Source: Acidiferrobacteraceae bacterium (GTDB taxonomy: Bacteria; Pseudomonadota; Gammaproteobacteria; Acidiferrobacterales; SZUA-150). Taken from it: DNA of 34,529 nucleotides. Shown here piece by piece: positions 1 through 16,555 of the stretch. Every line of letters begins with the position of its first letter. Positions within the stretch are counted from its first letter, which is position 1. The stretch lies in assembly GCA_003228915.1 (NCBI GenBank), contig QIGL01000008.1, forward strand, positions 1-34,529. The letters run 5' to 3'. A program made the translations under genes and the position numbers. The notes below the pieces were generated by a model. The model had not been told where the DNA came from and made no database searches. It was given only the letters and a program-made list of their open reading frames with translations.

Positions 1-1
1 A

Positions 2-1150
2 GAACCGGGGTCGTGCCCCAAGTGCGGCATGAACCTGGAACCCCGTCAGGGCAAACCAAAACAATCACATGATCATGCCGGTATGGATCACAGCACGATG
101 GAACACGGTGAAGCATTCATGTCCATGATTGATGTCACCAAAGACCTGCCCCTTAGTGGTGATGGTTTGGCAATGGACTGGATCGATGTGCCCTTCGGTC
201 CTTTTTTCCCGGGGTTACCCGGTGGCCTGTTGCTGACCCTGACACTTGACGGCGACACCGTGGCAGGCTCCAGCGCCAGTACCCTCGTTGGCAACCAACC
301 GCTGTTACTGGAAACCGGGATGGATTTCAACAGCTTTAGCAAACGGCTGGCAAGCCTGGCGCCACTAACACCGATTAGCTATCAAGTGCTTGCCTGCCTG
401 GCGTTTGAAAATGCTATCGGTTTAGAAGTTGAAAAACAAATTGCACTGGCGCGCGTGGTTGCTTTGGAACGTGAACGTATCGTCAGTCACCTGGGCTGGC
501 TGGTTTTGTTTGCAGAACAAACCGGCTTTGATTGGTTACAACACCGCGCCACCTTATTGCAGCAGAATTTACTGCGAGGGGATATAAAACAGAAACAGGT
601 TTCTGAATTAAAGTCGGGAATAATTACACTGAATAAACGATTACGGCGGACACCCTTATTAAAATCTCGCACCACCGGGATTGGCAAACTTATTGGCCAT
701 GCTGATATAACCTTGCTTGGCCCGGTGGCTCGCGCTTCGGGAATTAATAAAGATGCTCGCAGTAACGACAATATTTACCTGGGCCTTGGGTTCACCCCGA
801 CCAGCGGGGAAAATGGTGATGCCCGGGCGCGCTTACAACTTCGTCTTGACGAAATTAGCCAGAGCCTGATGTTAATTGAAAAGGCGGGTTTTACTACCAG
901 CGCCGACATTTTTAATAGTAATGGGATTAGTGAAAACAGTGGCACAGGTGAAGCAGTACTCGAAACACCCCGCGGCCTGGCGCACCTGCAGGTGAGTTTG
1001 AAAAACGGCCAGGTGATTGATGCAAAACTGGAGACGCCGTCAACCCACCATCTTGGTTTAATCGAGCAACTCACTGCCCAACAAGAACTGGGTGATGCAC
1101 TAATCACAGTAGGCTCACTTGATCTGTCACCCTGGGAAATTCGGTTGTGA
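2..1150 (+). CDS. NuoD-like complex I subunit fused to a heavy-metal-binding (HMBD) segment, 5' partial
   Basis: The reading frame is open from the left edge, so the true start lies outside the window. The first codons read EPGSCPKCGMNLEP, the C-terminal half of an HMBD metal-binding domain as found in copper ATPases and CusB-like proteins. A His/Met-rich linker (SHDHAGMDHSTMEHGE) follows. The rest aligns by eye with NuoD, the 49-kDa complex I subunit: GPFFPGLPGGLLLTLTLDGD matches the GPQHPSxHGvLRLvLeLDGE region, a helical core (LARVVALERERIVSHLGWL) follows, and the end is GSLDLSPWEIRL where NuoD has SLDPVxGEvDR. The quinone-site His residues of the GPQHPSxHG motif are replaced by Phe and Pro. 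The stop overlaps the next gene by GTGA. The family assignment rests on these motifs; the redox partner is unknown. A hydrogenase large subunit is unlikely because the nickel-ligand cysteines are absent. Confidence 0.72.
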   Translation, partial: EPGSCPKCGMNLEPRQGKPKQSHDHAGMDHSTMEHGEAFMSMIDVTKDLPLSGDGLAMDWIDVPFGPFFPGLPGGLLLTLTLDGDTVAGSSASTLVGNQPLLLETGMDFNSFSKRLASLAPLTPISYQVLACLAFENAIGLEVEKQIALARVVALERERIVSHLGWLVLFAEQTGFDWLQHRATLLQQNLLRGDIKQKQVSELKSGIITLNKRLRRTPLLKSRTTGIGKLIGHADITLLGPVARASGINKDARSNDNIYLGLGFTPTSGENGDARARLQLRLDEISQSLMLIEKAGFTTSADIFNSNGISENSGTGEAVLETPRGLAHLQVSLKNGQVIDAKLETPSTHHLGLIEQLTAQQELGDALITVGSLDLSPWEIRL

Positions 1151-2043
1151 CCACGCTGCTTATCGTACTTTTACTAATAGCTGGGGCATATTTTGTTGCA
1201 GTCCTCGAGGCCTGGATAAGCACTGGACGTTTTCAACTTTCGGCACCATTACTCGCTGGCATTGCTTTGCTCGGGCGGGAATCCAATTTACCGCGCAAAC
1301 CAGACCGGATTTTCTTCGAGGTCGGCCCGGTTTTGTTATTGTTATCGGGCTTACTGGCAGCCACAGTCATACCGCTGACGCCCAATTTAATTATTGCCGA
1401 TCTTGCTACCGGCGCCTTGTTCATCAATGCAGCACTGGTTTATGTGCTGGTCGCTTTATTGATGGCTGGCTGGGGGCCAGACGGTGCTTACGCGATGGTG
1501 GGTGGCTGGCGTTTCTTGGGCCAGTTGATTGCTTATGCCATGTTGATTGTAATGCCCATCACCGCAGTTGCCATGCGCGCCGAATCATTATTGTCGACAC
1601 AGATTGTGATTTCCCAGGCAAGTTTGTGGAACATTGTTTACCAACCGTTGGGATTTATATTATTTTTTATCGCATCCATGGCGCTGGCCTTTTTACCGCC
1701 GTTCGACATGATGATTGCCAAAGGTGAACTGGCCGGTGGTGTCGAGGCAGAGTACACGGGCATACGACTGGCCGTGTTCCGACTTGGCAGGTTGGTATTA
1801 ATAATTACCCTGGCGGCTGCCACCGTCGTTTTTTACCTGGGTGGCTGGCAAGGGCCCTGGTTACCACCCTGGGCATGGAGCGCAATAAAAATTCTGGCGG
1901 TCGCCGCAACTATGTTGCTCGCGGGGCGTTACATGCCACGCATCCGCGAGGCACACCTACTTTCCTGGTGTTGGATACTGGGCATCCCCCTGGCACTGAT
2001 CAACATTCTAATCGTTGGCATACTGGTGCTGGAGTTTCCATGA
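1147..2043 (+). CDS. nuoH: NuoH-like membrane subunit of a complex I-like enzyme
   Basis: A 298-residue hydrophobic protein with about eight membrane segments. NuoH/ND1 joins the membrane arm to the redox arm and lines the quinone tunnel. The best match is the C-terminal half, where PFDMMIAKGELAGGVEAEYTG parallels the family pattern PFDLPEAEqELvaGyhtEYsG, followed by an RLGR loop and further helices. Near residues 28-50 the usual loop with RxGPNRVGPxGxLQPxAD is not present; the protein reads QLSAPLLAGIALLGRE instead. Two acidic residues of the EAE triplet are also changed (IAK). It starts with GTG overlapping the upstream stop, which implies translational coupling to the NuoD-like gene. This is a divergent NuoH, so the symbol indicates homology and not proven quinone chemistry. 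Confidence 0.75.
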   Translation: MTTLLIVLLLIAGAYFVAVLEAWISTGRFQLSAPLLAGIALLGRESNLPRKPDRIFFEVGPVLLLLSGLLAATVIPLTPNLIIADLATGALFINAALVYVLVALLMAGWGPDGAYAMVGGWRFLGQLIAYAMLIVMPITAVAMRAESLLSTQIVISQASLWNIVYQPLGFILFFIASMALAFLPPFDMMIAKGELAGGVEAEYTGIRLAVFRLGRLVLIITLAAATVVFYLGGWQGPWLPPWAWSAIKILAVAATMLLAGRYMPRIREAHLLSWCWILGIPLALINILIVGILVLEFP

Positions 2044-2558
2044 CCGCGCAAATGTTTTTTATCGGTTTTTTTGGGCTCGCTGGCGTCTGGTTTGGCATTG
2101 TAGTGTTTCGTACTTATTCAATGGTGCGCTCGGCACTAGCACTATTGTTTTCGCAAACGGCACTGGGTGCAATGTTCCTGAGCATGGAGGCGGAATTCCT
2201 GGGTGTCTTGCAAATTATGATGATGGCCACTGAAATGAGTATTATGGCGATTTTCATGGTGATGTTTATGATGGATCCAGGTGGTCTGGGCACCATGGAC
2301 ATGACCCATCAGAAACGTTTGTCATTAATAACGGGCTTTGTTTCGTTTGTGGCCGCCGTTCTTGTTGCCGTGTTCGTAGACTGGGGACCGGTCGCGACAA
2401 GTTTTCCCGATGCAGCGCAACAAACTGTCGATCTCGGACTCGAGTTATTGAATCGTTCGATGCTGATTTTTGAAATGGCGGGCGTCACTATTCTGACTTC
2501 AATGATTGCCGCCACCGCCGTCGCCATACAACCGGTAAAAAGGAAACAGAAACAATGA
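2040..2558 (+). CDS. nuoJ: NADH-quinone oxidoreductase subunit J-like protein
   Basis: A 172-residue protein with about five membrane helices, the usual length for NuoJ. The conserved third-helix region is visible as AEFLGVLQIMMMATEMSIMA, which aligns with the A(D/E)F(I/L)xxxQxxxYxGAIMVLFLF pattern. The Tyr-Ala-Gly of the classical pi-bulge is replaced by MATEM, a divergent feature. The start is taken as the ATG that overlaps the nuoH stop (ATGA), since the frame is open much further upstream only inside nuoH. In complex I, NuoJ sits between NuoH and NuoK and helps couple redox change to proton channels. Confidence 0.8.
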   Translation: MTAQMFFIGFFGLAGVWFGIVVFRTYSMVRSALALLFSQTALGAMFLSMEAEFLGVLQIMMMATEMSIMAIFMVMFMMDPGGLGTMDMTHQKRLSLITGFVSFVAAVLVAVFVDWGPVATSFPDAAQQTVDLGLELLNRSMLIFEMAGVTILTSMIAATAVAIQPVKRKQKQ

Positions 2559-2866
2559 GTCCTGAACTTATTATTGCCCTGGTTTCGGGTGCTGCATTGT
2601 TTGGTGTCGGCATCTATGGTGCACTGTCCCAGACCAACCTGGTCATGATTATGATGGGGGTAGAATTAATTCTTGCCGGCGCCATGGTTAACATGGTGGC
2701 ATTCTGGCGTTACCTGCACCCGGACAACCCCGCCGGACAAATGTTTGTATTAATTATCATGACCGTCATGGCCATCGAAATGGCAGTGGGTTTTGGTGTG
2801 GCCATTGCCCGCTTCCGTGCTAAAGGCTCGGTTGAAATGGAAGAAGCAACGGAGTTAAAGGGATGA
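2555..2866 (+). CDS. nuoK: NADH-quinone oxidoreductase subunit K-like protein
   Basis: A 103-residue, three-helix protein of normal NuoK length. Both membrane glutamates known to matter for proton transfer in NuoK are present: Glu37 in MMGVELILAGAMVN and Glu75 in TVMAIEMAVGFG, matching E. coli Glu36 and Glu72. The start overlaps the nuoJ stop by ATGA and the stop overlaps nuoL in the same way. Retention of these residues suggests the proton path at the base of the membrane arm is functional. The family also includes MnhC/MrpC-type antiporter subunits, but the flanking J and L genes favour complex I. Confidence 0.9.
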   Translation: MSPELIIALVSGAALFGVGIYGALSQTNLVMIMMGVELILAGAMVNMVAFWRYLHPDNPAGQMFVLIIMTVMAIEMAVGFGVAIARFRAKGSVEMEEATELKG

Positions 2867-4704
2867 ACCTGATTGCCGTCGCTATTCTCGCACCACTTTC
2901 TGCAACACTGCTGATCATGTTATTGCGGCGCTTCCCCGCAACACTGGCGTTGTTAGGTGCCGCTATCGGTCTGGTCGGCAGCCTGGAATTATTGGCCAAT
3001 GCATATAATGGCCTGAGCCAAGAAATAATTTTGCCCGGTTTGCCGGGCATGCCGCTGCGCCTTGTGGCCACGCCCTTGACCGCATTGCTCTCAACCCTGG
3101 TCGCCGTGGTCTGCACCCTGGTGATGGTTTATGCAGTGGGTTACATGAAAAAGGATCGGGAACAGGTACGTTTTTTTGCCACCCTGTTGTTATTCGCCGC
3201 TGCCATGCAGACACTGGTGCTTGCCGGTGACTGGATATTATTACTGTCGGCCTGGGAACTCATTGGCCTGAGCAGTTACCTGTTAATCGGCTTCTGGTAC
3301 CGCAAGCCGGGGGTTAAATCGGCCGCCATGCGCGCATTCCTGGTTACCCGCAGTGCTGATCTGGGGCTCTATGTTGCCGTTTTTATTCTTATCACCAATG
3401 CCGGTAGTAGTGATATTGCAAGTACGTTAAATACAAGCGGCGGTCCTGCCATTGCTGCCGGGTTATTATTATTGATCGCGGCCATGGGAAAATCTGCACA
3501 AACGCCATTACATGACTGGTTACAACGCGCCATGGCAGGGCCGACACCGGTATCGGCGCTGTTACATTCGGCGACACTGGTTGCCGCAGGAGCGATTCTG
3601 CTGATTCGTACTGCACCAATGTTAGCGCCTGAAACACTATTAGTTATTGGCATTGTTGGTGGCGTCACTACTGTCGTCACTGGCCTGATTGCACTGGCTG
3701 AATCGGATCTTAAACGCATGCTGGCTGCATCAACCTCCAGTCAATATGGACTGATGTTGATTGCCGTAGGCGCTGGTGTGCCCATGGCTGCCCTGCTACA
3801 CCTGATTGCCCATGCGGCAATTAAAAGCAGTTTGTTTCTTGGCGCCGGTGTATTCCAGCACAGTCGCGACAGCACCATGCTGGATAAATTACAGGGCGTT
3901 GGCCGTAATCAACCAAAAATATTTTTCGGTTTCGCACTGGCCGCACTGGCACTGGCCGGCATTCCGCCGCTGAGTGGTTTCTTTTCTAAAGATGCCATTA
4001 TCGCTGCCACACTCAGCTCGGATCATATCTGGATACTGTTGCCCCTGGCCCTGGCCGGTACTTTATTAACAGGTGGCTACATGGCCAGGGCCCTGCGCAT
4101 TCTTTGGCTAAAAAATGGCACAAGTCAGCCCGTAAGCGGGCTTGCCTGGATGGGTACCGGGCTGGGCGGACTGGTTTTACTAGCCGTTATTTTAGGTGCC
4201 GCGTTCCCAGGCCTGGAATTATTGCTGGAATCAGCACTGAATATTCGGCTAACCGAAAATACCATAACCCGATTCATTCCCGAGATACTAGGGTTGAGTG
4301 CAGCCCTGGGTGGCCTGCTGCTGGGCTGGTTTTTTCCTGTCCAGGTTTTACTTGGACCAATACTGCCCTGGGCAAAACGGGGTTTTGTGGTAGCGGGCGG
4401 TTTCGATAACTTGATGGTGCGTCCCGCGCTCGCCATTGCTCATGGCTGTGAAAAACTGGAGCGCCTTCTATATAAAGGGGTGCTGGCAACGGGGCGGCTC
4501 GGACTCAGGCTCGGCAAGGCCGCTCGCCGTAATGATGAGTCCGGTATCGACGGCATGATATTTTCTTTTGTACGTGGCACGGTCAATCTTGGCGGCAAAG
4601 CCCGTACCCTGCAAAACGGTTTGATTCACAAGGAACTGGCCATTAGCACCATCGCCAGTGCCGTGATTTTAGTTTTCATGTTCATTGTTTTACTAACGTA
4701 CTAA
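2863..4704 (+). CDS. nuoL: NADH-quinone oxidoreductase subunit L-like proton pump
   Basis: 613 residues, the normal NuoL length including the C-terminal lateral helix. NuoL is the distal antiporter-like subunit of complex I. The TM5 glutamate is present (Glu132 in LLLSAWELIGLSSYLL). The lysine and broken-helix region is also present: AAMGKSAQTPLHDWLQRAMAGPTPVSALLHS, then HSATLVAAGAILL. A long hydrophilic/amphipathic stretch near residues 490-590 precedes the last membrane helix (SAVILVFMFIVLLTY), as expected for the lateral helix. The start overlaps the nuoK stop by ATGA. DabB or Mrp A/D-type relatives are less likely given the length and the gene order. Confidence 0.9.
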   Translation: MNLIAVAILAPLSATLLIMLLRRFPATLALLGAAIGLVGSLELLANAYNGLSQEIILPGLPGMPLRLVATPLTALLSTLVAVVCTLVMVYAVGYMKKDREQVRFFATLLLFAAAMQTLVLAGDWILLLSAWELIGLSSYLLIGFWYRKPGVKSAAMRAFLVTRSADLGLYVAVFILITNAGSSDIASTLNTSGGPAIAAGLLLLIAAMGKSAQTPLHDWLQRAMAGPTPVSALLHSATLVAAGAILLIRTAPMLAPETLLVIGIVGGVTTVVTGLIALAESDLKRMLAASTSSQYGLMLIAVGAGVPMAALLHLIAHAAIKSSLFLGAGVFQHSRDSTMLDKLQGVGRNQPKIFFGFALAALALAGIPPLSGFFSKDAIIAATLSSDHIWILLPLALAGTLLTGGYMARALRILWLKNGTSQPVSGLAWMGTGLGGLVLLAVILGAAFPGLELLLESALNIRLTENTITRFIPEILGLSAALGGLLLGWFFPVQVLLGPILPWAKRGFVVAGGFDNLMVRPALAIAHGCEKLERLLYKGVLATGRLGLRLGKAARRNDESGIDGMIFSFVRGTVNLGGKARTLQNGLIHKELAISTIASAVILVFMFIVLLTY

Positions 4705-4750: not shown

Positions 4751-6226
4751 GTGTACCCATTAGTATCCATTACTGTCTTTTTGCCACTACTTGGGGCGCT
4801 GCTTGTTTTATCCATGCGCAAGGCACCGACACAAGTTGTGCACGGAATTGGCATAACTACCAGCGGTCTAACACTACTGGGCGCCCTGCAGATGTGGTCT
4901 CGCGGGGTTAGTGAAACCGGCTTTGCCCAGGTTGAACAAATTGACTGGATGCCCTCCATTGGCGCTGCTTATCGTGTTGGTGTTGACGGTATTAGTTTGC
5001 CCCTGGTGCTGCTTTCAGCGCTGCTGTTTTTTGTGACCTTTATTTATTCGGCCAAGGTGCGCAAACAACCCCATGCTTTTGTAGCACTGATGCTGTTACT
5101 GGAGACGGCCTCCATCGGCGCCTTCACCGCGCTGGATGGAATTTTATTCTACGTATTCTTTGAGGTGTCACTGGTTTCCATGTACTTCATGATTGCTGAA
5201 TGGGGTCATGAAGATCGCCAACGTGCGGCGCTAATGTTTTTTATCTATACTTTTCTTGGCAGCCTGCCATTACTACTCGCCATTCTTGGCTTGTACCTCG
5301 GTAGTGAGACCTATACTTTTGATATGCGCGCATGGATCAGTGATCCACCCCTGGATGGGACAGCGGCGATGCTGGCACTGGTGGCCATGTTGATTACCTT
5401 TGCTGTCAAGACGCCGGTGTTCCCGTTTCATACATGGTTGCCGGCAGCCCATGTCCAGGCACCGGCCGCGGGCAGTGTGATTCTCGCCGGGGTGATGTTG
5501 AAATTCGGTACTTACGGAATAATAAGGTTTGCTTATCAAATGACACCAGATGCCTTTCGTGATGCCGGTTTGGTTATCCTGGCATTCGGTGTGGTGGCCG
5601 CGCTTTATGGCGCTTTCGCAGCACTGGCACAAAGCGATCTCAAACGCCTGGTGGCTTATACCTCGATCAACCACATGGGTTACATAATTGTCGGGGTGGC
5701 GATCGCGGCATTGGCAACCGAGCCTGCAATTCGGGCAACCGCACTCGACGGCTCGGTATTGCAAATGGTCAGTCACGGGTTGGTTACCGGCGCACTATTC
5801 ATGCTGGTGGGTATGTTGCAGGATCGTGCCAATACCCGGGAGATGGATCAATTTGGTGGATTACTCAAAGTGGTACCGATACTGGGCTGGTCCTTCGTGC
5901 TTGCCGCATTCGCCTCATTAGGTTTGCCGGGGCTAGCGCATTTTCCAGCAGAGTTCCAGATTTTCCTGGCAACACTACAAGTCGAGCCGATCGCCATTAT
6001 TGTTATTCTTGGCATCGTGGTCACGGCGGGCCTGTACCTGCGCGCCATCGCCCAGGTTTTTCTGGGTGAGGTTGGCGAAAAGTGGACAACAAAAACCATG
6101 CCTGATTTAAGTGTCCGCGAATTGCTGGCACTGGGCCCGCTTTTATTGCTCACCATTGCACTGGGTGTCGCACCGGCATGGGTGCTGGATGTTATTCATA
6201 AAACCACAGCGAACTGGCAATTCTGA
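4751..6226 (+). CDS. nuoM: NADH-quinone oxidoreductase subunit M-like proton pump
   Basis: 491 residues with about 14 membrane helices, typical for NuoM. Visible family motifs are Glu138 in FYVFFEVSLVSMYFMI, the segment KTPVFPFHTWLPAAHVQAP AAGSVILAGVMLKFGTYG, and the second-half motif QSDLKRLVAYTSINHMGY. It starts with GTG preceded by an AGGAG ribosome-binding site at 4737-4741. A 46-base AT-rich gap separates it from nuoL, the only real gap in the operon. The stop overlaps the nuoN start (TGATG). The usual Asp of the LPDAH motif is Ala here (LPAAH), a small deviation. Confidence 0.9.
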   Translation: MYPLVSITVFLPLLGALLVLSMRKAPTQVVHGIGITTSGLTLLGALQMWSRGVSETGFAQVEQIDWMPSIGAAYRVGVDGISLPLVLLSALLFFVTFIYSAKVRKQPHAFVALMLLLETASIGAFTALDGILFYVFFEVSLVSMYFMIAEWGHEDRQRAALMFFIYTFLGSLPLLLAILGLYLGSETYTFDMRAWISDPPLDGTAAMLALVAMLITFAVKTPVFPFHTWLPAAHVQAPAAGSVILAGVMLKFGTYGIIRFAYQMTPDAFRDAGLVILAFGVVAALYGAFAALAQSDLKRLVAYTSINHMGYIIVGVAIAALATEPAIRATALDGSVLQMVSHGLVTGALFMLVGMLQDRANTREMDQFGGLLKVVPILGWSFVLAAFASLGLPGLAHFPAEFQIFLATLQVEPIAIIVILGIVVTAGLYLRAIAQVFLGEVGEKWTTKTMPDLSVRELLALGPLLLLTIALGVAPAWVLDVIHKTTANWQF

Positions 6227-7647
6227 TGGAGCGTGATCTCGCTTTACTGATCCCGGAGATCATTATCCTGCTAACCGTGGTTTTTGCCCTGGTGGCCGAA
6301 ATGTTGCGCCTGCCTCGAATTGCACTGGCTATTATTATTGCCGGTCTGCTGCTCGCGACTGTTCAAACCCTGCCATTACTCGATGTAAACACGACAGTCT
6401 TCGGCGGCACCTTTCGTATAGATACGCTAAGTGTTTGGGCCAAACTTATTTTACTGCCCGCTACCGTATTATCACTGTTACTGGCGCGCGCCGAACTCGC
6501 AGGCACTGATCGTGAAGGTACAGTTTATGTGCTTGTATGCCTGGTGAGCCTGGCTTCGGTGCTGTTGGCAGGTGTGGGCGACACCATGGTGCTGGTATTG
6601 GGTATTTTGTTATCCAGTCTCGGTTCCTTTGCATTGGTTGCTTATCCACGCGATGATTTCGCAACCGAGGCCGCCATGAAGTTTTTTGTGTTCGCATCAG
6701 TCACCACCAGCGTGATGATTTTTGGTCTCAGTTACTGGTTCGGCGGGACCGGTTCAACCTTGCTTAGCGAGCTTTCACGTCTGGATTCATCCCCGGTTGT
6801 TGCTGTGATTGGTTTGTTTGCTGTTATTATTGGGCTCGGTTACAAAGCCTCGTTAGTACCGTTCCACTTCTGGGCACCGGACGCTTACGAGGGTGCGCCC
6901 GTTTCAATTGCCGCTTACCTGTCGGTGGTGCCCAAGATCGGCGCCATCCTGGCTTTTGCCCAGATCGTACGAGACTTGCCCATAACAATGGCCTGGCCAC
7001 TAATCATCGCCGTGATCGCGGTTTTGAGCATGACTTATGGCTACCTGGCCGCCCTGGTGCAAAACAATATCGTGCGTTTACTGGCTTATTCATCAATCGC
7101 ACAAGCAGGATATTTTTTACTGGGTATTGTGGCAGTCGGCACGAGTCCACTAGCCTTGCCATCTTTAATTATTTTTTCTGCCGCCTATGCCGCAATGAAC
7201 CTGGGTGCGTTTGCCGTTGTCATGGTGGTTGGCCGTACCCTTGAAACATTTAAAGGCATTGGCCGTAACAAGCCCGCGTTGGGCGTCGCCATGGTGGTAT
7301 TTCTTTTGTCACTGGTCGGCATACCGCCACTAGCCGGTTTCGTCGGCAAGTTTTTATTATTTGGTGCCGCCATCGAGGCCGGTTTCACCTGGCTGGTTGT
7401 AGTGGCTATACTTAATAGCGTATTATCTCTGGCAGTTTATTTGCGCATTGTGGTACCGATGTATCAGAAGCAGCATGATGACTCGTCTGTAGCCATGTCG
7501 ACACCGTTGATCTCGTTGGTGTGGGTTATTGCATTACTTCTCACTATTGCTATTGGACTGGGTGCGCAACTGCTGTTTGGACAATTAAATGAATATTTAA
7601 CAGGCGAATCATTACATTGCGCTACCTCCCTTTCATATTTATCGTAA
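6226..7647 (+). CDS. nuoN: NADH-quinone oxidoreductase subunit N-like proton pump
   Basis: 473 residues, normal length for NuoN. Conserved regions are GLGYKASLVPFHFWAPDAYEG, the following PKIGAILAF lysine, VQNNIVRLLAYSSIAQAGY, and VGIPPLAGFVGKFLLFGAAI with the TM12 lysine. The TM5 position that carries Glu133 in E. coli NuoN (GIEL) reads GILL here (Leu128), so the charged residue thought important for proton transfer is missing, unlike in the neighbouring L and M subunits. Its 3' end overlaps the start of the next gene by 31 bases in another frame, so translation of the two is probably coupled. Confidence 0.88.
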   Translation: MERDLALLIPEIIILLTVVFALVAEMLRLPRIALAIIIAGLLLATVQTLPLLDVNTTVFGGTFRIDTLSVWAKLILLPATVLSLLLARAELAGTDREGTVYVLVCLVSLASVLLAGVGDTMVLVLGILLSSLGSFALVAYPRDDFATEAAMKFFVFASVTTSVMIFGLSYWFGGTGSTLLSELSRLDSSPVVAVIGLFAVIIGLGYKASLVPFHFWAPDAYEGAPVSIAAYLSVVPKIGAILAFAQIVRDLPITMAWPLIIAVIAVLSMTYGYLAALVQNNIVRLLAYSSIAQAGYFLLGIVAVGTSPLALPSLIIFSAAYAAMNLGAFAVVMVVGRTLETFKGIGRNKPALGVAMVVFLLSLVGIPPLAGFVGKFLLFGAAIEAGFTWLVVVAILNSVLSLAVYLRIVVPMYQKQHDDSSVAMSTPLISLVWVIALLLTIAIGLGAQLLFGQLNEYLTGESLHCATSLSYLS

Positions 7648-9209
7648 TCCTGACGTTATTGATCCCGGCATTGGCTCTTGCCTGGGATACTAGCTGGTAC
7701 TGGTTACTAATAATTACACTACCGCTGACACTTCTGGGTTTTCGAGATATTTTTCAATCACGCCATAGCCTGCTACGAAATTATCCCTTGATGGCACACT
7801 TTCGTTGGCTCTTCGAGGGGATTCGTCCCGAAATAAGACAATACTTGCTTGAAAGTGACTCCGAGGCCATTCCTTTTAGCCGTGAACAACGGGGCCTGGT
7901 GTACGAGCGGGCCAAGAACACCGTTGATGTCCATCCCTTCGGCACTGACCTGGATGTTTATGATGAGCGATATGCCTGGCTTAACCATTCGACCGCACCG
8001 GCTAAAAAACAAGTGTCCTGTTTCAATATCAAGGTGGGAGGACCACAATGTAACAAGCCTTATCATGCATCCGTGTATAACATTTCTGCTATGAGTTTTG
8101 GTGCCTTGAGCGCTAATGCTATCCGCGCCTTGAACAAAGGCGCGAAAATGGGGAATTTTGCTCACGATACCGGCGAAGGCAGCATTAGTCGTTACCATCG
8201 TGAATTCGGCGGTGACTTGATCTGGGAAATCGGCACTGGCTACTTTGGTTGTCGCAACAAGGACGGTAGTTTTAATCCGGAAATATTCGCTGAACAAGCC
8301 AGTAATGATCAAGTCAAAATGATCGAAATCAAACTTTCCCAGGGCGCGAAACCCGGACACGGTGGCGTCCTCCCCGGCCACAAGGTCAGTGCAGAAATTG
8401 CTGCTACCAGGCATGTAACAGCCGGTGAAGACTGCCTGTCGCCATCGGGGCACAGCGCCTTTAGCACACCGATTGAATTACTGGAGTTTATTAAACAGTT
8501 GCGCACCCTGTCCGGTGGCAAACCTGTTGGTTTTAAACTTTGCCTTGGCCACCGTTGGGAATTTCTGGCCATCGTCAAGGCAATACTGGAAACCAGTATT
8601 GTTCCAGACTTCATTGTTGTTGATGGCGCCGAGGGTGGTACCGGTGCAGCACCTTTGGAATTCTCCAATCACATTGGCACACCTTTACTGGAAGGATTGT
8701 TATTTGTCCATAATGCGTTGTATGGCACCCGTTTGCGCGACCAGATAAAAATTGGTGCCAGCGGTAAAATTGTATCAGCGTTTGATATGGTGCGAGTCAT
8801 GACCCTGGGTGCAGATTGGTGTAACGCGGCACGGGGATTCATGTTTGCCCTGGGCTGTGTGCAGTCACGCAGTTGTCATACCAACCGGTGCCCGGTCGGT
8901 GTGGCTACCCAGGACCCGCGACGACAACGCGCCCTGGTCGTTGCAGACAAGTCAGACCGTGTTTACCATTTTCATAAAAACACACTAAACGCCCTGGCCG
9001 AAGTTATTGCCGCTGCTGGTCTTGAGCACCCCTGCCAACTTCGTCCCTACCATTTCCACATACAGTCAATGCAGAAAAAATCCTTGCCAGGCAATATGGT
9101 GCTTGATTTTCTTGAGCCTGGTGAACTACTGGAAGGTACTGAAAATCCCCTATTCAAGATCAACTGGGCGCTGGCACAGGCAAGTTCCTTCGCACCGCTA
9201 AAACCATGA
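7617..9209 (+). CDS. Membrane-anchored FMN-binding glutamate synthase-like protein
   Basis: 530 residues belonging to the central/FMN domain family of glutamate synthase large subunit (GltB domain 2). Two N-terminal hydrophobic helices (residues 3-45) should anchor it in the membrane. The (beta/alpha)8 FMN barrel covers roughly 140-460, with ISAMSFGALSANAIRALNKGA, a GEGSISRYH substrate loop, QGAKPGHGG and DGAEGGTGAAPLE. The 3Fe-4S ligands are seen as Cys414, Cys420 and Cys425 (CVQSRSCHTNRC, spacing C-x5-C-x4-C as in GltS). The glutaminase domain is missing, so it is not a complete glutamate synthase. It starts with TTG inside nuoN, which places it in the complex I-like operon. The reaction in vivo is unknown; a redox partner of the pump is an inference. 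Confidence 0.88.
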   Translation: MRYLPFIFIVILTLLIPALALAWDTSWYWLLIITLPLTLLGFRDIFQSRHSLLRNYPLMAHFRWLFEGIRPEIRQYLLESDSEAIPFSREQRGLVYERAKNTVDVHPFGTDLDVYDERYAWLNHSTAPAKKQVSCFNIKVGGPQCNKPYHASVYNISAMSFGALSANAIRALNKGAKMGNFAHDTGEGSISRYHREFGGDLIWEIGTGYFGCRNKDGSFNPEIFAEQASNDQVKMIEIKLSQGAKPGHGGVLPGHKVSAEIAATRHVTAGEDCLSPSGHSAFSTPIELLEFIKQLRTLSGGKPVGFKLCLGHRWEFLAIVKAILETSIVPDFIVVDGAEGGTGAAPLEFSNHIGTPLLEGLLFVHNALYGTRLRDQIKIGASGKIVSAFDMVRVMTLGADWCNAARGFMFALGCVQSRSCHTNRCPVGVATQDPRRQRALVVADKSDRVYHFHKNTLNALAEVIAAAGLEHPCQLRPYHFHIQSMQKKSLPGNMVLDFLEPGELLEGTENPLFKINWALAQASSFAPLKP

Positions 9210-9356
9210 AGGACAACGAGCGAATGGAATTAGGTGCATACCCCTGAGCAGGTCAATTCAAAAATACTGGCAACAAATACGAAAACTGGTCAAAGATTGA
9301 AACGAGCGTTTCGCGTTATAATATACAGGCTCCGGATGAACCGAATGAAGCAGAAG
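9210..9356. other. Intergenic gap between convergent genes
   Basis: These 147 bases lie between two convergent genes. A TATAAT hexamer occurs at about 9317, but no well-placed -35 box fits, and a plus-strand open frame here only reads into the antisense of the permease. No convincing terminator hairpin was found. Confidence 0.4.
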
Positions 9357-10541
9357 TTAACCCGCTGGCACGGCAAAAATCAGAACAAAGCCAAGGACAA
9401 GTGCAATAAATACAAAAAAGCTCCGTTCACGGTGATTACGACAGACAGAAAACGCAACCACGCACTGTAACAGGTAGTAAAATGCAAAGGCGCGTGAGGC
9501 CAGGGCGATAATCTCAAAGGTAGAACCGGACCAGGATAGCGCCATCGCAGAGACGCCAACGAGAAAATAACCCCAGCGTGCACTAATACGCCGACGACTT
9601 ACTTCTCTCATATTGGCGGTGGCGGCAAGGGTATCAGCGACGGCGGCGGAAAACTGCGACAGACTCGCAGCTATTACCAGGGGTAAAGGCAAAAGCAAAG
9701 AGGCAGTTGCCGCCAGTGTGATCAGGCTATTGTCACCATAATTTCCATTAAGCACTGCAACAATTGGTTGCGCCAGCGCCACAAACAGCACGTAAACACT
9801 GAGTGAAAAATACTGTGACCAGCGTGATGCCCGGATACGAGTAACCGTATCAAATTCTTCGCCCAGGTAGCGAGGTGTTTCAAAACCCTGCACAACAATC
9901 AGCGTGCCTGCCACGATGGTTGCAATTTCCCATACAGTTCGTTGTGGCATTGCTGGCAACGTAAAATAGCCCTGTGCCAGGAACTGTCTGAAATCATAAA
10001 CGCCAAATACGATAAGCAGTAGCGCAAGCAGTAGAATGGTCAGATAAAGCGCCCAGCTTTCCAGTTTTTCCAGTGGCTTCAACCCCCCCAACAGGCCAAC
10101 GATAGTGATTACACCAATTATAATGCTGGTCAACAGGCTTTTGTTGAATGCCGTGTCCAATTCAAAGCTGGCGAGAACAAACGCAGACATGATATGAATG
10201 TACAGGCACACTGAGATCACATAGGCAGCGACCAGTGAAAAATCAGAAAGTCGTTCGACAACAAAAGTAAATTTTTTGTTTCCTTTTTTCAGTGCGGGTT
10301 CGGCGCAGAGTATATTATGCCGAATAATTTTACCGACCAAAAAGGCGATAAACGCCACAACTACCATTGCAACTATTGCATAGGGGCCAACAGCACTTGC
10401 AAGAACAGGTACAACAATAAGAAACCCACTACCAAATATGGATGCCAGCGGTGTGCTCATTGCGGGGACAATGTTTCTCATTGCTGCTTTATTTGTTTCG
10501 ATAGTACAGCTAGGCTGGTCAGATTGGTGGTTTGGTAGCAT
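9357..10541 (-). CDS. APC-superfamily-like membrane transporter
   Basis: 394 residues with about eleven hydrophobic helices and short loops. The first helix contains SIFGSGFLIVVPVLASAVGP, whose small-residue GSG break resembles the unwound TM1 of APC-fold amino-acid permeases. A conserved-looking QGFETPRYLGEEF segment between helices 6 and 7 is also reminiscent of permeases of this fold. The substrate cannot be told. The start is uncertain: the Met at residue 1 precedes a polar stretch of 20 residues, and Met21 (MRNIVPAMSTPLAS) is an alternative. It is transcribed divergently from cti and convergently with the GltB-like gene. Confidence 0.6.
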   Translation of the reverse strand: MLPNHQSDQPSCTIETNKAAMRNIVPAMSTPLASIFGSGFLIVVPVLASAVGPYAIVAMVVVAFIAFLVGKIIRHNILCAEPALKKGNKKFTFVVERLSDFSLVAAYVISVCLYIHIMSAFVLASFELDTAFNKSLLTSIIIGVITIVGLLGGLKPLEKLESWALYLTILLLALLLIVFGVYDFRQFLAQGYFTLPAMPQRTVWEIATIVAGTLIVVQGFETPRYLGEEFDTVTRIRASRWSQYFSLSVYVLFVALAQPIVAVLNGNYGDNSLITLAATASLLLPLPLVIAASLSQFSAAVADTLAATANMREVSRRRISARWGYFLVGVSAMALSWSGSTFEIIALASRAFAFYYLLQCVVAFSVCRNHRERSFFVFIALVLGFVLIFAVPAG

Positions 10542-10758
10542 GTAAATTCCAACATGGTAGTGGCGGTTGTTGAAAGAAGTCGCACAGTCTATTTAATCTG
10601 TTTGATCAAAGCCTACCCTCATGGGCATCTTCATGTCTTGATGCTATAGATTAACATGGGTTGAACCCGGTAACAGTTTTATGCTGATTTAATCGGTTTC
10701 GTCTTTTACGCAAAGATATTATCACATAATTTAAGGTTTTTCTGGTAGCATACAGCTT
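10542..10758. promoter_or_regulatory. Divergent promoter region between permease and cti
   Basis: This gap must carry promoters for both flanking genes. Two short perfect palindromes are visible: TTTGATCAAA at 10601-10610 and GGGTTGAACCC at 10658-10668. Either could be an operator, but neither matches a consensus I can name with confidence. Assignment of -35 and -10 boxes is ambiguous. Confidence 0.35.
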
Positions 10759-13185
10759 ATGACGGGATGGAAAAAAATATCAAAGAATACCCGGGTACTG
10801 ATAATCTTATCTGTTGTATTGTTACTGGGCGTATTCATTTATAAAGTTTTTGAGTGGCCACTCACAACTAACAACGAAACCAAAGCAATAGAATCGGAAT
10901 TATCATCACTTCAGCTCGATACACCGGTAAATTACGAACAACAGGTCAAGCCTGTTTTAGAGCGACGTTGTGTGGTGTGCCATGGTTGTTACGATGCACC
11001 CTGCCAGTTAAAACTATCCTCCAATGAAGGCCTGCAACGCGGCGCCAATAAAGAACGTATTTATGATGCCCAGAGAATTGAAAGCATGCCCGCCACCCGC
11101 TTATTTATTGATGCTAAAAGTACTGTAGAGTGGCGTGCCCGTGGATTCTCTCCCGTAATCAACGAAGGTACGCAAAACCCTGAAAATAATTTGTACAATT
11201 CAGTGTTATATCGCCTGCTGCGTCTGAAAAAGCAACATCCACAACCGCGTGCTGGTAAGTTGCCGGATAATTTCACTCTGGATCTGGACCGTGAGCAGAC
11301 CTGTACAACCCTGGAATCGGTTAACAAATTTGCCGAGCAACACCCGCTATGGGGCATGCCCTATGCCATGCCTGATTTACTGGATTCAGAATACCAGACA
11401 CTGGTTTCCTGGATAGCTCAGGGCTCACAGGCACCGCCCCCCTCTGATCCCTCAGCGATAGTACGCCCACAAATAAAAAAATGGGAATCTTTTTTTAATC
11501 AACCATCACGAAAACAGAAACTGGTGAATCGTTATCTCTATGAGCATCTGTTTCATGCACACATACATTTTACCGGGTCACCGGAGCGAGAGTTTTACCG
11601 TCTGGTACGTTCGAAAACACCGCCTGGTAAGGTGATTGATGAGATAGCGACACTACGCCCCAATGATGATCCTGGTACCAGTACTTTTTATTACCGACTG
11701 TTACCGTATCACCCTAGCATTGTGAATAAAAATCATATCGTTTATGAATTTTCAGATAAACGACTGCAACGATTTCACGAACTCTTTTTAACGCCCGATT
11801 ACACCGTATCACAACTACCCTCCTATGAGCCGGGAACCGCTTCCAATCCATTCAAAGTTTATGCGGCCATACCGGCAGTGTCACGATATCGTTTTATGCT
11901 GGATGATGCATATTTTTTTATTGAGGGTTTTATCAAGGGACCGGTTTGTCGGGGGCAACTGGCATTGAATGTTATTGAAGATCAGTTTTGGGTGGTTTTC
12001 TTTAATCCAGATAAACCTATCATTACCAACAGTAGCCAGTTCCTGGAAAAGATGGCGCCAGAATTACAATTGCCCGCCGACTTTAATAATAATCTTGATT
12101 TAGTGCGTATCTGGACGGAGTACTGGAAAGGACAAAGACGCTACATGGAACACAAGCAGGCCTGGTTTAAGACAATTGGCACCCATAAACTGGATCATGC
12201 CATGGATTTTATCTGGGACGGAGACGGTAAAAACCCCAATGCCGCTTTGACTATATTCCGGCATTTTGACAGTGGTTCAGTCGCTTACGGACTGGTCGGC
12301 AATGACCCGGAAACTACCTGGGTCATCGATTTTCCGTTACTAGAACGCATCCATTATTTACTAGTGGTTGATTTTAATGTCTATGGCAACATAGGTCACC
12401 GAATGAGTACCAGAATCTATATGGACTTCCTGCGCATGGAAGGCGAGGATTCATTTTTGGCTTTTTTGCCCGTAAACAGGCGAAAAGAAATACGTGATAA
12501 ATGGTATGTTGGCCAACGTAGTAGTATAGAAAAATTATTTTCTGCGCCGCAGGAATGGTTAAGCACGGAGGCAGTAGAAGGTTACCAGACAGCGAATCCG
12601 CAACAAGAACTATACCAACGCATCAAAGATCGATTTAAAGTTTTGTCGCAACATGCAAAAGCCATGAACCATTGTGGCAGTATCGGTTGTAAAAACCTGA
12701 TAGCGAAATCTGCCATAAAACGTGCAGACAACGCCATGATTAAGATTGCGCAACTGCAAGGTAAAAATTTGCATTCCTTTCCAGATGTCGCTTTTGTGCG
12801 AGTCAAGACAGATAAACCGGAAGATGATCTTACTTACAGCTTAATACGCAATAAAGCTTATAAAAATGTGACTTCATTTCTTGCGGACGAAAGTGAACGA
12901 GACCGGGCAGATATTGATCACGATACGATGACGGTGGTGAAGTGGCTGGAAGGATCCTATCCAAATTTCTTTTTTTCCGTAGCGTTATCAGATATTGAAG
13001 AATTTTCCAAACGATGTGCTGCGATACGAAATAACAAGGATTATGAAAAGTTTGTAGATCAGTATGGCGTTCGACGAACCAACCCTTTATTCTGGGAATT
13101 GGCCGACTGGTTCCAGGATGACTACAAACGAAAAAAACCCATTTCATCGGGATTATTTGATTTGAATCGGTATCATAATCGTTAA
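10759..13185 (+). CDS. cti: Fatty acid cis/trans isomerase (cytochrome c type)
   Basis: 808 residues, close to the usual size of Cti. Cti converts cis-unsaturated to trans-unsaturated acyl chains of membrane phospholipids in the periplasm, a rapid response to solvents, heat or salt. An N-terminal hydrophobic anchor/signal (residues 12-32) is followed by a covalent haem site CVVCH at residues 71-75 inside RCVVCHGCYDAPCQLKL, the hallmark of this family. The rest contains family-like blocks such as FHAHIHFTGSPEREFYRLVRS and HFDSGSVAYGLVGNDPETTWVIDFPLLERIHYLLV (split here by reading, around residues 265-540). It stands alone with its own upstream region. No ribosome-binding site is clear before the ATG. 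Confidence 0.93.
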   Translation: MTGWKKISKNTRVLIILSVVLLLGVFIYKVFEWPLTTNNETKAIESELSSLQLDTPVNYEQQVKPVLERRCVVCHGCYDAPCQLKLSSNEGLQRGANKERIYDAQRIESMPATRLFIDAKSTVEWRARGFSPVINEGTQNPENNLYNSVLYRLLRLKKQHPQPRAGKLPDNFTLDLDREQTCTTLESVNKFAEQHPLWGMPYAMPDLLDSEYQTLVSWIAQGSQAPPPSDPSAIVRPQIKKWESFFNQPSRKQKLVNRYLYEHLFHAHIHFTGSPEREFYRLVRSKTPPGKVIDEIATLRPNDDPGTSTFYYRLLPYHPSIVNKNHIVYEFSDKRLQRFHELFLTPDYTVSQLPSYEPGTASNPFKVYAAIPAVSRYRFMLDDAYFFIEGFIKGPVCRGQLALNVIEDQFWVVFFNPDKPIITNSSQFLEKMAPELQLPADFNNNLDLVRIWTEYWKGQRRYMEHKQAWFKTIGTHKLDHAMDFIWDGDGKNPNAALTIFRHFDSGSVAYGLVGNDPETTWVIDFPLLERIHYLLVVDFNVYGNIGHRMSTRIYMDFLRMEGEDSFLAFLPVNRRKEIRDKWYVGQRSSIEKLFSAPQEWLSTEAVEGYQTANPQQELYQRIKDRFKVLSQHAKAMNHCGSIGCKNLIAKSAIKRADNAMIKIAQLQGKNLHSFPDVAFVRVKTDKPEDDLTYSLIRNKAYKNVTSFLADESERDRADIDHDTMTVVKWLEGSYPNFFFSVALSDIEEFSKRCAAIRNNKDYEKFVDQYGVRRTNPLFWELADWFQDDYKRKKPISSGLFDLNRYHNR

Positions 13186-13439
13186 GTGTTATGCCTGCTT
13201 TACGTTTGGTCATCATTTTCGCCTCATGACATCATTCCAGCAATTATTATTATCGTATACGACGCCTTATTTAAAATTTTTTTAAACATGGATTGGCAAC
13301 ACTCTCACCACATAAACAACTTCCTGATACCATTTTTTTCTCCCCTGTATGACTTTGACTTATGGGCTGGCAACCCTGTGGAAAAATTACCCCAAACAGT
13401 ACTGGCTGCCCATGTTAGTATGCGGGATGGAGTTTTAAC
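13186..13439. other. Intergenic region with no convincing gene
   Basis: 254 AT-rich bases between cti and the methyltransferase. One open frame covers it but has low-complexity, unfamilial sequence and no ribosome-binding site. A 29-codon frame at 13349-13438 ends just before the next ATG and could be a leader peptide, though nothing supports its translation. The sequence GGAG at 13429-13432 serves as ribosome-binding site for the downstream gene. Confidence 0.4.
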
Positions 13440-14096
13440 ATGAACGAAGAATTTTCACATTCCGGCGTCTGGCCTATTGCGATACTTATGATTGTCGTCG
13501 CTTCGTGGGTTTTTTATCGATATTTCGCCCCAAAATCATGGCGTGAATGGGCCAGCGCAGGTTTGGTCCAGGCATTTATTATTGCTTTATATGCCGAGAT
13601 GTATGGTTTTCCGCTGACGATTTATTTTTTGGTACGGTTCTTCGGGATTGACGCGCCAAACCTTAGCGCCAACCTCTGGTCTTCGTTAATTGGTCTTGGC
13701 GAACTCGGTATGTTGATCTCGATGATTCTAGGTTACCTGTTGTTATTCATAGGCATTGGTATTTTTGTTCAGGGCTGGCGTGAACTCTACCGTGCCCGAC
13801 AACAAAACCAGCTTGTCACCACAGGCTTATACCGTTTCGTCAGGCATCCACAATATACCGGCTTGTTCATTGGCCTGTTTGGTGAAGGCGTGGTGCATTG
13901 GCCAACATTGTTTTCTGTTGCAATTTTCCCGGTTATTGTTCTTGCTTATTTTTTATTATCGCGCAGCGAAGAAAAAAAGGTGCTCGAACAATTCGGAGAA
14001 GCGTATCGCGCTTATCAAAAGCAAGTACCAATGTTTATTCCACGATCAGGACAATGGAAAAAATTCGTGGCCAGTCGCAAGCGCAAGCAAGACTGA
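13440..14096 (+). CDS. Isoprenylcysteine methyltransferase-like membrane protein
   Basis: 218 residues with about five membrane helices. The C-terminal half carries the signature of the ICMT/PEMT-like membrane methyltransferase group: LVTTGLYRFVRHPQYTGLF (residues 125-143, with Arg135-His136-Pro137), then the Glu177-Glu178 pair in SRSEEKKVLEQFGEAYRAY. These elements bind S-adenosylmethionine in the family. Bacterial members often have unknown substrates, and some act on isoprenoid or lipid groups or accompany metal-resistance loci. The start ATG has a GGAG box seven bases upstream. It is convergent with the GH130 gene, with a 35-base gap. Confidence 0.8.
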   Translation: MNEEFSHSGVWPIAILMIVVASWVFYRYFAPKSWREWASAGLVQAFIIALYAEMYGFPLTIYFLVRFFGIDAPNLSANLWSSLIGLGELGMLISMILGYLLLFIGIGIFVQGWRELYRARQQNQLVTTGLYRFVRHPQYTGLFIGLFGEGVVHWPTLFSVAIFPVIVLAYFLLSRSEEKKVLEQFGEAYRAYQKQVPMFIPRSGQWKKFVASRKRKQD

Positions 14097-14131: not shown

Positions 14132-15079
14132 CTAGTAAGGTGGGCGGTTATTACCAAGACATAAATCAACCAGGTCGTTGATGCGGGCAGTGCCGGCACA
14201 CATCACGGTATCGGCACCGCCCCAGTAAATTATGATGCCGCCGTCGCCATCCTCTACCGCACCACAGGAAAAAACGACATTGTGTACATAACCGGTCAGC
14301 TCCCAGGGATCTTCCGGGGCCAGTATCCATTCATCAGCAACGCCGATAATTTTTGCTGGGTTCTGCAAATCATGTAATGCCACGCCCAGGCGATAAACCG
14401 CACCGTCCATGGTTTCGAATACGCCGTGATAAATACAAAGCCAGCCGCGATCAGTACGAATCGGGGTCGCAGAAGGACCGATCTTGCTTTCATCCCAGTG
14501 ATACTGCACCGGTTTCAACACCACTTGAGAATCACCCCAGTGGATTAAATCCGGCGACCATGACAACCACACCGACCAGGGACTGATCTCCGTATGGGGA
14601 CGATCGAGGCGGGCATAGCGACCATTAAAACGTTCGGGGAAAATAACAACATTGCGCATGTCCGCCTGTGTGATGAGTGCAACCCTTTCCACGCTTCGAA
14701 AATCCCGTGTTCTGGCCAGACCGATACGGACACCATGAGCTGAATAGGCGCTGTAGGTAATCAGGTACTCGCCATCGATACAACAAATTCTGGGGTCTTC
14801 CAGTCCATAAGCCTCGTACTCAGCAAAGCTGCCTTCTTCAGATGGAATCATGAATGGTTTCGGGCCAACCGTAAATTTGAAGCCATCTTCACTTTCGGCA
14901 ATCCCTATAATAGAACGACCGCTGCGCAGGTGCGACCGAAACAACATAATAATACGGCCGTCATAGCGGGTAATACCGGCATTGTGCACGGTTTCTACCG
15001 GGTAAGGGATGTCGTCCTTTGTCAGGATCGGGTTGGCCTGGCAACGCTCGATAATGGGTTGTTTAGGTGCAGCGGTCAT
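14132..15079 (-). CDS. GH130 family glycoside phosphorylase (mannoside type)
   Basis: 315 residues forming the five-bladed propeller fold expected for GH130. Many members are beta-mannoside phosphorylases that release mannose-1-phosphate. The catalytic Asp lies in YGLEDPR (Asp95). Residues corresponding to the phosphate ligands of characterised mannosyl-glucose phosphorylase are kept: Arg142-Asn143 in MRNVVIFP, Lys199 in SKIGPSATPI, and His218 in CIYHG, with the same 19-residue Lys-to-His spacing. The ATG at 15079 is preferred because AGGA lies five bases upstream; earlier in-frame starts exist at 15085 and 15115. It overlaps the end of the GT4-cupin gene by 17 bases, so the two are co-transcribed. 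The exact linkage and acceptor are unknown. Confidence 0.85.
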   Translation of the reverse strand: MTAAPKQPIIERCQANPILTKDDIPYPVETVHNAGITRYDGRIIMLFRSHLRSGRSIIGIAESEDGFKFTVGPKPFMIPSEEGSFAEYEAYGLEDPRICCIDGEYLITYSAYSAHGVRIGLARTRDFRSVERVALITQADMRNVVIFPERFNGRYARLDRPHTEISPWSVWLSWSPDLIHWGDSQVVLKPVQYHWDESKIGPSATPIRTDRGWLCIYHGVFETMDGAVYRLGVALHDLQNPAKIIGVADEWILAPEDPWELTGYVHNVVFSCGAVEDGDGGIIIYWGGADTVMCAGTARINDLVDLCLGNNRPPY

Positions 15080-16412
15080 AGTCATCCTGCAGGCGAATAA
15101 TATCGTCCTCGCCAAAATAATCTCCCATCTGGACTTCTACTATAACCAGCTGGGTAAGGCCGGGGTTCATGATCCGGTGTACAGCACCCCTTGGTATATC
15201 CACTGATTGCCCTGGTTTGAGCAGAATTTCTTTTTCTCCCACGGTGACCAGGGCTTCGCCACTCACCACGGTCCAGTGCTCGGCACGGCGCCGATGCTTT
15301 TGCAAACTTAATCGTTCACCTGGGCTAACGATGAGTTCCTTGATCTTGTGGTCTGCGCGCTCAAGTAAATTGTCATAGTGCCCCCAGGGACGGTAGTGCT
15401 CCCGTTGCTCGAGAATCCTGTGGTAAACCGCCACGTATTCGTGTGCCATACGCCGACTCGTAAAATGCTGCTCGACACTATCCCGGCAGGCCTGTCTGTC
15501 GATTGTGTTAATTTTGCCCACGGCCTGCACGGCCGCGTCCAGGTCATTAACTAAAAATCCATTGCTGCCGTCTTGAATAATTTCCGGCATTGAGCCACGA
15601 TCATATGCAATGACCGGTGACCCGCAGGCCATGGACTCAACCACACTCAGACCAAACGGCTCATCAAAATTAATCAGGTGTAACAAGGCCAGCGCACTTG
15701 CCATCACTTGCTGGCGCTGTTCCGGTCCGACAGAGCCTATGTATTCCACTTTTGATCCATCAATAAAGGGTTCGACCCGTTCCTTGAAATAAACTTCGTC
15801 TTGTATGATGCCGGCAATCACAAGACGTTTACCGGTTAAACGCGCAACCTTTATGGCATCATGCACGCCTTTATCAGGATGAATGCGCCCAAAGAACAGG
15901 AGATAGTCTCCCGCATGCTGCTGAAAGGTAAATTGACCAAGATCAATCCCGTGGGGGATAGTGGCAATGTAATCAAGTTCAGCAGATTTGTCGGCCTCAC
16001 TGATGGCGACATAATAAGTGCTGTCATTGTACTTTTTGTAAACTGGCAATATGGCTGATGAAGAAAACCCGTGTATGGTGGTGACAACGGGTGTATGTGT
16101 GAAGCCACTGTAGCTGAGTGGCAGAAAATCGTAGTGATTGTGAATCAGGTCGAATTCGTCTGCTCGTTTGAACAACTCGGCAATATGCAGACTCTCCCAT
16201 ACTTTTGGATCAATGGTGGGATCTTCTGAATAGGGTCGTGGACAGACTGATACGAGCTTGCCAGTGGTGATGGAATCGCCGCTGGCAAACAGGCTTACCT
16301 CAATACCCATTGATACCAGCTGTTCAGTGAGCAGGCTGACTACATTCTCCCAGGGCCCATAATGACGTGGTGGCGTACGCCATGATAATGGACTTAACAT
16401 CGCAATTTTCAT
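15063..16412 (-). CDS. GT4 glycosyltransferase fused to a phosphomannose isomerase-type cupin
   Basis: 449 residues in two parts. Residues 1-340 form a GT-B glycosyltransferase of family 4, with a glycine-rich N-terminus (PLSWRTPPRHYGPWENVV), the HNHYD and TTIHGF segments, FGRIHPDKGVHDAI, and the EX7E donor motif in EPFGLSVVESMACGSPVIA. Residues about 345-449 match the C-terminal domain of ManC/AlgA-type bifunctional enzymes: RPWGHYDNLL, SPGERLSLQKHRRRAEHW, VVSGEALVTVGE, IPRGAVHRIMNPG, EVQMGDYFGEDDIIRLQDDY. That domain isomerises fructose-6-phosphate and mannose-6-phosphate; the metal-binding His and Glu residues are present. The start is the Met of MKIAMLSPLSW. The fusion links mannose supply with a glycosyl transfer step. 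Confidence 0.88.
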   Translation of the reverse strand: MKIAMLSPLSWRTPPRHYGPWENVVSLLTEQLVSMGIEVSLFASGDSITTGKLVSVCPRPYSEDPTIDPKVWESLHIAELFKRADEFDLIHNHYDFLPLSYSGFTHTPVVTTIHGFSSSAILPVYKKYNDSTYYVAISEADKSAELDYIATIPHGIDLGQFTFQQHAGDYLLFFGRIHPDKGVHDAIKVARLTGKRLVIAGIIQDEVYFKERVEPFIDGSKVEYIGSVGPEQRQQVMASALALLHLINFDEPFGLSVVESMACGSPVIAYDRGSMPEIIQDGSNGFLVNDLDAAVQAVGKINTIDRQACRDSVEQHFTSRRMAHEYVAVYHRILEQREHYRPWGHYDNLLERADHKIKELIVSPGERLSLQKHRRRAEHWTVVSGEALVTVGEKEILLKPGQSVDIPRGAVHRIMNPGLTQLVIVEVQMGDYFGEDDIIRLQDDYDRCT

Positions 16413-16520
16413 GAAGCATCTGCCTGCATGGTTATCACCCAGTATTTTCGATCTTGGTATTGTCAATATTGCATAGGGGGCTAAATGCACTATTACAGTA
16501 ACACGATTCACCACATGAAC

Positions 16521-16555
16521 AATAAAAGAAAAAAACTGCCCCGGTAGCGGGCTGG
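16521..16555 (-). terminator. Candidate intrinsic terminator upstream of the GT4-cupin gene
   Basis: Read on the minus strand, a GC-rich hairpin (GCCCGCTACCGGGGC, 16552-16538) is followed by AG and a run of seven T, then CTTTT. The stem is only four to five GC pairs. It lies about 110 bases before the GT4-cupin start and points towards it, yet no gene on this strand precedes it. It could end a small RNA or act as an attenuator. Confidence 0.4.

Follow-up and report, generated by a model that had tools for sequence, protein, structure and literature searches.

Organization of the locus

The window, that is, the whole stretch of 34,529 nucleotides analysed here, constitutes one contig (C16) of a draft genome of 2.66 Mb in 116 contigs. 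It opens inside a gene: frame +2 runs uninterrupted from base 2 into a stop codon at 1148-1150, and its translation within the window comprises 382 residues, which lead from a metal-binding domain of the HMBD family through a linker into a NuoD-like domain and are followed by genes for membrane subunits of the complex I type (Table 1). Pfam finds Complex1_49kDa in this frame (E 1.4e-17) as well as the last 14 of the 28 HMBD profile positions (PF19335), the latter with 20.9 bits, just under the cut-off of 23.6 because the contig starts there.

Table 1. Features of the fusion operon in the window, with the basis of each assignment
Feature	Position	Strand	Basis
3' part of the nuoB-(HMBD)n-nuoD fusion gene	2..1150	+	open frame; 51-base overlap; complete fusions in 70 relatives
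C-terminal half of the last HMBD (EPGSCPKCGMNLEP)	2..43	+	Pfam PF19335; complete HMBDs on C51
His/Met/Asp-rich linker (SHDHAGMDHSTMEHGEA)	44..115	+	sequence
NuoD-like domain without quinone-site His and Tyr, from the invariant FMSM	116..1147	+	PF00346; alignment; fold of relative L072
FGPFFPGLPGG region, in place of FGPQHPAAHGV of ordinary NuoD	188..220	+	alignment
NuoH-like subunit, many quinone/E-channel residues lost	1147..2043	+	PF00146; residues; tree
NuoJ-like subunit	2040..2558	+	PF00499
Methionine ladder of NuoJ helix 3 (MMMATEMSIMAIFMVMFMM; M60-M78)	2217..2273	+	invariant Met; co-occurrence
NuoK-like subunit; E37 kept in all, E75 kept or Asp; added M31, M69, M72, M76	2555..2866	+	Pfam; residues
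NuoL-like subunit, proton-path residues kept	2863..4704	+	Pfam; residues
NuoM-like subunit, most proton-path residues kept	4751..6226	+	Pfam; residues
NuoN-like subunit, four key Lys kept, E133 lost	6226..7647	+	Pfam; residues

The 5' part of the gene resides on another contig, C51 (15062-15891 of locus L004), whose last 51 bases (25840-25890) are identical to the first 51 of the window. The end of C51 carries nuoA (PF00507, E 1.7e-24), followed by an open frame that encodes a NuoB-like domain and, behind it, HMBD repeats, to which PF19335 matches with 131.7 bits, over the cut-off. Joined by the overlap, the two contigs yield a stop-free frame of 642 residues with three HMBDs. The window thus begins inside a tandem HMBD repeat, the exact number of which cannot be read here because the assembly broke within it; near-identical repeats at C51 25744-25890 and C16 1-51 mark the break point, and the contig of the nearest relative (L053) likewise begins within an HMBD. 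With the start of the gene on C51, what remains for positions 1-1150 is just a piece of the last HMBD, the linker and the NuoD part. The 51-base identity and 70 relatives encoding the complete fusion in one frame rule out an assembly chimera, an error that the first-pass annotation of this DNA had itself considered. Its description of one open frame running from a metal-binding module via a linker into a NuoD-like core agrees with the frame, the Pfam matches and the relatives, and the two analyses it had suggested, leftward extension of the contig and a profile search with HMBD and NuoD models, gave the results above. The fusion of HMBD and NuoD therefore holds, but the N-terminal partner is not an HMBD alone: it is a NuoB-like domain followed by HMBD repeats.

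Downstream of the operon, a protein with a glutamate synthase domain (PF01645; 7617-9209) starts inside the end of nuoN and is possibly co-transcribed; it is not among the recurrent neighbour clusters of other loci. The stretch that follows, 9357-14096, encodes a membrane protein that matches no Pfam family, a fatty acid cis/trans isomerase (CTI) and a methyltransferase resembling ICMT/PEMT; each of the three has relatives that turn up repeatedly close to the operon in further genomes. The region 14132-20620 encodes a GH130-type phosphorylase and glycosyltransferases, one of them fused to a mannose-6-phosphate isomerase domain. On C51, a beta-propeller protein (L004 6263-7498) bears a His/Met/Lys-rich insert, and a propeller of the same kind is found near the operon in eight other loci.

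A widespread family with a conserved architecture

Among 369 gammaproteobacterial genomes searched, clear relatives were found in 13 others, with 48-70% identity over most of the query, one fragmented copy excepted. A scan of GTDB genomes, in which FGP-[FL]-F-P-G-L-P served as one search pattern, returned 138 relatives, 80 of which were kept; their hosts include Marinobacter, Halomonas, Alcanivorax, Brevundimonas, Rhodanobacter, Sulfitobacter, Rubrobacter and many MAGs. In these 80 loci the gene order is nuoA-[B-(HMBD)n-D]-H-J-K-L-M-N wherever the contig is long enough, and Pfam matches together with gene order establish the membrane subunits A, H, J, K, L, M and N; none of NuoC, NuoE, NuoF, NuoG and NuoI is present in the operon within the fetched loci. 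The one exception to the order is a degenerate copy in Marinobacter salarius R9SW1 (L128 8742-14060), in which NuoH is split, NuoL truncated and NuoM and NuoN are missing, and which adjoins genes for CopA and CopB. The architecture is otherwise conserved from Gammaproteobacteria to Rubrobacter, such that the family spans at least two bacterial phyla, Pseudomonadota and Actinomycetota. Plasmids of Roseovarius, Paracoccus, Sulfitobacter, Nitratireductor, Thioclava and Rubrobacter carry the fusion as well, annotated there as 'heavy metal-binding domain-containing protein'; no relatives were found on viral contigs.

One to ten HMBDs are present in 69 of the 70 complete fusions, and PF19335 scores over its cut-off in 40 of 41 relatives. 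In four loci (L054, L057, L108 and L126) the frame is interrupted, either at the passage from HMBD to D or inside the HMBD stretch; in two of these, both from Rhodanobacter MAGs (L108 and L126, about 9160-11011), B-HMBD and D lie in different frames at the same place, representing either a real split or a shared frameshift. The NuoH proteins of the family form a single clade (support 100/97) in a tree with few outgroup types. Supposed relatives in the same order proved to be large subunits of the Hyf/Ehr type with only about 30% identity and were rejected as family members.

Loss of the redox sites and retention of the proton path

The NuoB domain matches NuoB/PSST both by profile (E 3e-7) and by fold (Z 12.4). 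The cysteine set that ligates Fe-S cluster N2 (CC...C...C) is found in none of the 79 NuoB domains of the family, and the domain encoded on C51 is free of cysteines altogether. In the NuoD part, GPFFPGLPGG aligns with GPQHPAAHG of ordinary NuoD, bearing out the earlier claim that both quinone-site histidines are lost; the quinone tyrosine is replaced too, and a run of some 60 residues of ordinary NuoD has no counterpart here. The structural comparison that had been proposed points the same way, as the corresponding part of relative L072 superposes on NuoD with Z 37 and an rmsd of 2.0, supporting both the fusion and the loss of the histidines. The changes extend into the membrane arm, where the NuoH equivalents of E. 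coli E36, R37, R46, D63, E157 and E241 are lost in nearly all of 24 sequences, and where Y59 of NuoJ, a tyrosine in 22 of 22 canonical proteins, is methionine in all 24 family copies.

In the remaining subunits, residue alignments reveal E36 and E72 of NuoK to be kept, the second site sometimes as Asp, along with E144, K229, H254, H338, K342 and K399 of NuoL, E144, K234, K265 and E407 of NuoM, and K158, K217, K247 and K395 of NuoN, which has lost E133 and H305. With the quinone-end residues lost and most of those in NuoK, NuoL, NuoM and NuoN kept, the proton-moving end is intact and the quinone end is not. In 10 of 36 carrier genomes there is no canonical NuoB anywhere, and there the complex must therefore stand alone; NuoF matches (PF01512) in these ten genomes fall in longer frames of the Rnf or formate dehydrogenase kind and thus do not serve as a marker for complex I. 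The genome of the window also possesses an ordinary nuo operon.

How does this assembly relate to known systems? With respiratory complex I it shares homologues of NuoA, B, D, H, J, K, L, M and N, the NuoB and NuoD folds and the proton-path residues of the antiporter-like subunits. It differs in lacking NuoC/E/F/G/I, the N2 ligands and the quinone His and Tyr, in its altered NuoH and Met-lined NuoJ, and in the fusion of B and D through HMBDs. The Ehr complexes and the group 4 [NiFe]-hydrogenases (FHL/Hyf, Mbh) are likewise membrane complexes related to complex I, with a NuoD-like large subunit. The family, in contrast, has the subunit set of complex I and a B domain without Fe-S cluster, and its D alignment contains no invariant or nearly invariant cysteine and hence no CxxC pair of the [NiFe]-hydrogenase type. 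Mrp cation/proton antiporters provide a precedent for complex I-related ion transport without redox chemistry. To our knowledge, however, Mrp has neither a NuoB/NuoD cap nor a metal-binding domain, and the family operon, with its NuoB and NuoD domains and NuoH, falls outside the MrpA-G set.

Losses on this scale could also be read as the decay of a complex I remnant which has no function and carries a metal domain only incidentally, and the degenerate copy in M. salarius would fit such a fate. Given an operon and dozens of residues that are invariant across Pseudomonadota and Actinomycetota, we consider this very improbable.

The HMBD resembles a copper-sensing domain

Across 60 HMBD sequences, C148, M150, H151, C162, C165 and M167 are invariant (L072 numbering). 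A gapless alignment is obtained with the metal-binding domain of the Legionella copper ATPase LpCopA (8ovl, 3rfu), with C42, M44, H45, C56, C59 and M61 in register. By NMR, Ag(I) is bound in the LpCopA domain by M44, C59 and M61, and a copper-sensing role has been assigned to it (PMC11970713); these three sulfur ligands correspond to M150, C165 and M167 of the family. All the residues by which the LpCopA sensor ligates Cu(I)/Ag(I) are thus present in the family HMBD, a putative binding site for these ions. While in LpCopA the domain regulates a P-type ATPase, here it sits in a complex I-like complex. In a Rubrobacter copy (L129 4358-6124) all HMBD cysteines are lost, with the acidic/His-rich linker and the methionine ladder of NuoJ (see below) retained, indicating that the ladder is the more conserved of the two.

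A methionine ladder in the gate helix of NuoJ

A comparison of 83 family NuoJ sequences with 22 canonical ones yields 12 invariant methionines specific to the family. Methionine accounts for 10.9% of NuoJ as against 4.8% in canonical proteins, the ranges not overlapping, and for 9.4% as against 4.5% of NuoK, whereas NuoL, NuoM and NuoN contain less methionine than their canonical counterparts (Fisher p 3e-4). In the numbering of the window NuoJ (ATG at 2040), computed angles place M62, M66, M69, M73 and M77 on one helix face; M86, M88 and H90 are located in the loop following helix 3. In complex I, the central axis is gated by this helix, whose loop communicates with that of NuoA at the quinone cavity (PMC10212512). 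The ladder co-occurs strictly with the fusion: a DNA pattern for its MMMA-[TS]-EM motif is found in 14 of the 369 gammaproteobacterial genomes, which are exactly the fusion carriers, and the reversed control pattern in none of the 369.

Copper context and earlier reports

Copper or heavy-metal genes (metal P-type ATPase, multicopper oxidase, CopB, CusA or CDF) lie within 10 kb in 31 of the 66 loci with enough neighbours. Of 20 canonical nuo regions taken as control, two have a CusA-type match, in flanks that are shorter and thus allow only a rough comparison. CopA scores over the cut-off in 24 of 36 carrier genomes versus 1 of 14 control genomes, and the plasmid-borne fusions share their plasmids with copper-resistance genes. 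No evident copper genes adjoin the window copy or its nearest deep-sea gammaproteobacterial relatives.

Could the physiological metal of the same design be zinc, silver, mercury or another soft metal, with the copper linkage incidental? HMBDs occur in transporters of other metals too, and the neighbours include P-type ATPases and CDF transporters without an assigned metal. The Met-rich sites and the CopA and CopB neighbours, in turn, point to Cu(I)/Ag(I), and we judge another metal to be improbable. Of the copper- or zinc-binding domain put forward by the first-pass annotation, the metal-binding domain thus stands, with the metal narrowed to most likely copper.

In Marinobacter atlanticus, a nuoADHJKL cassette inside a copper operon was found to be co-expressed with copper genes; copper redox was proposed as an energy source, and a quinone-binding NuoD was assumed (Eddie et al., 2021; PMC8233155). 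That paper mentions no HMBD fusion, NuoB part, loss of redox sites or methionine ladder. As the M. salarius copy is degenerate in the same manner, with NuoL truncated and NuoM and NuoN absent, the M. atlanticus cassette very likely is a degenerate form of the same family. Our literature search found no paper on the fusion, the NuoB part, the lost redox sites or the ladder, leaving Eddie et al. (2021) as the direct prior art; the earlier statement that such a protein is not described was therefore nearly right, in that a copper-linked cassette had been reported, without the fusion. A pump in which oxidation or reduction of copper at the cap drives proton pumping, along the lines proposed for Marinobacter, would account for the copper linkage, the co-expression and the copper ligands in the former place of N2. 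But the operon offers no quinone site, no Fe-S cluster and neither NuoE/F/G nor another acceptor, and soft sulfur ligands favour copper staying as Cu(I), all of which renders copper redox quite improbable.

Discussion

What can be concluded about the role of the fusion protein? We give roughly even odds (about 0.5) to its forming the cap, on the cytosolic side, of a membrane machine which derives from complex I, performs no redox chemistry and handles Cu(I) instead. All sites needed for electron transfer have been lost, and a copper-sensor-like domain and a methionine helix have been gained; this relative of complex I therefore probably moves or responds to copper rather than respiring. That the complex is redox-dead and handles copper is much better supported than any direction of transport. 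For the latter, proton-coupled export of Cu(I) appears most likely and copper-gated ion flux second, transport being what we infer from the features of the complex.

Our tentative picture is of a complex I turned into a proton-driven exporter of Cu(I), in which the HMBDs replace Fe-S and quinone chemistry, the Met-lined gate helix carries copper and the antiporter subunits supply the power. The HMBDs and the His/Met-rich linkers would bind cytosolic Cu(I) at the place formerly occupied by N2 and quinone chemistry. From there, copper would enter the Met-rich loop and helix 3 of NuoJ, passing M88, M86, M78, M77, M73, M69, M66 and M62, jointly with added methionines in NuoA, NuoK and NuoH; this path is putative. 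Along the former central axis, copper entry would be linked to the movement of protons in NuoN, NuoM and NuoL, such that the proton motive force would drive Cu(I) out of the cytosol, as in a complex I running in reverse with copper in lieu of quinone.

A copper-gated ion channel or antiporter would employ the same parts differently. Here, copper at the HMBDs would relieve autoinhibition, as in LpCopA, whereupon the membrane arm would move H+ or Na+/K+ and restore ion balance under metal stress; copper itself would not be transported, and the NuoJ methionines would form a second sensing site in the gate helix. Such gating would be in keeping with the LpCopA domain being a sensor rather than a donor (PMC11970713), with helix 3 of NuoJ being the gate of complex I (PMC10212512) and with the intact antiporter subunits. 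However, 12 invariant methionines look like more than a sensor needs, and up to 10 HMBDs suggest scavenging or delivery, so that we hold gating to be conceivable but on the unlikely side.

For genome annotation, the 10 of 36 carriers which have 'nuo' genes but no canonical NuoB imply that complex I may be wrongly credited to such organisms. The coupling of redox chemistry to proton movement has long been a question in the study of complex I, and the gate formed by NuoJ helix 3 is central to it. As the family has kept the proton path, swapped the chemistry and rebuilt the gate with methionine, it could allow gate and proton path to be studied without electron transfer. If Cu(I) export by this complex holds true, it would represent a new class of metal transporter, separate from the P-type ATPases and RND pumps and present on mobile plasmids and in marine bacteria.
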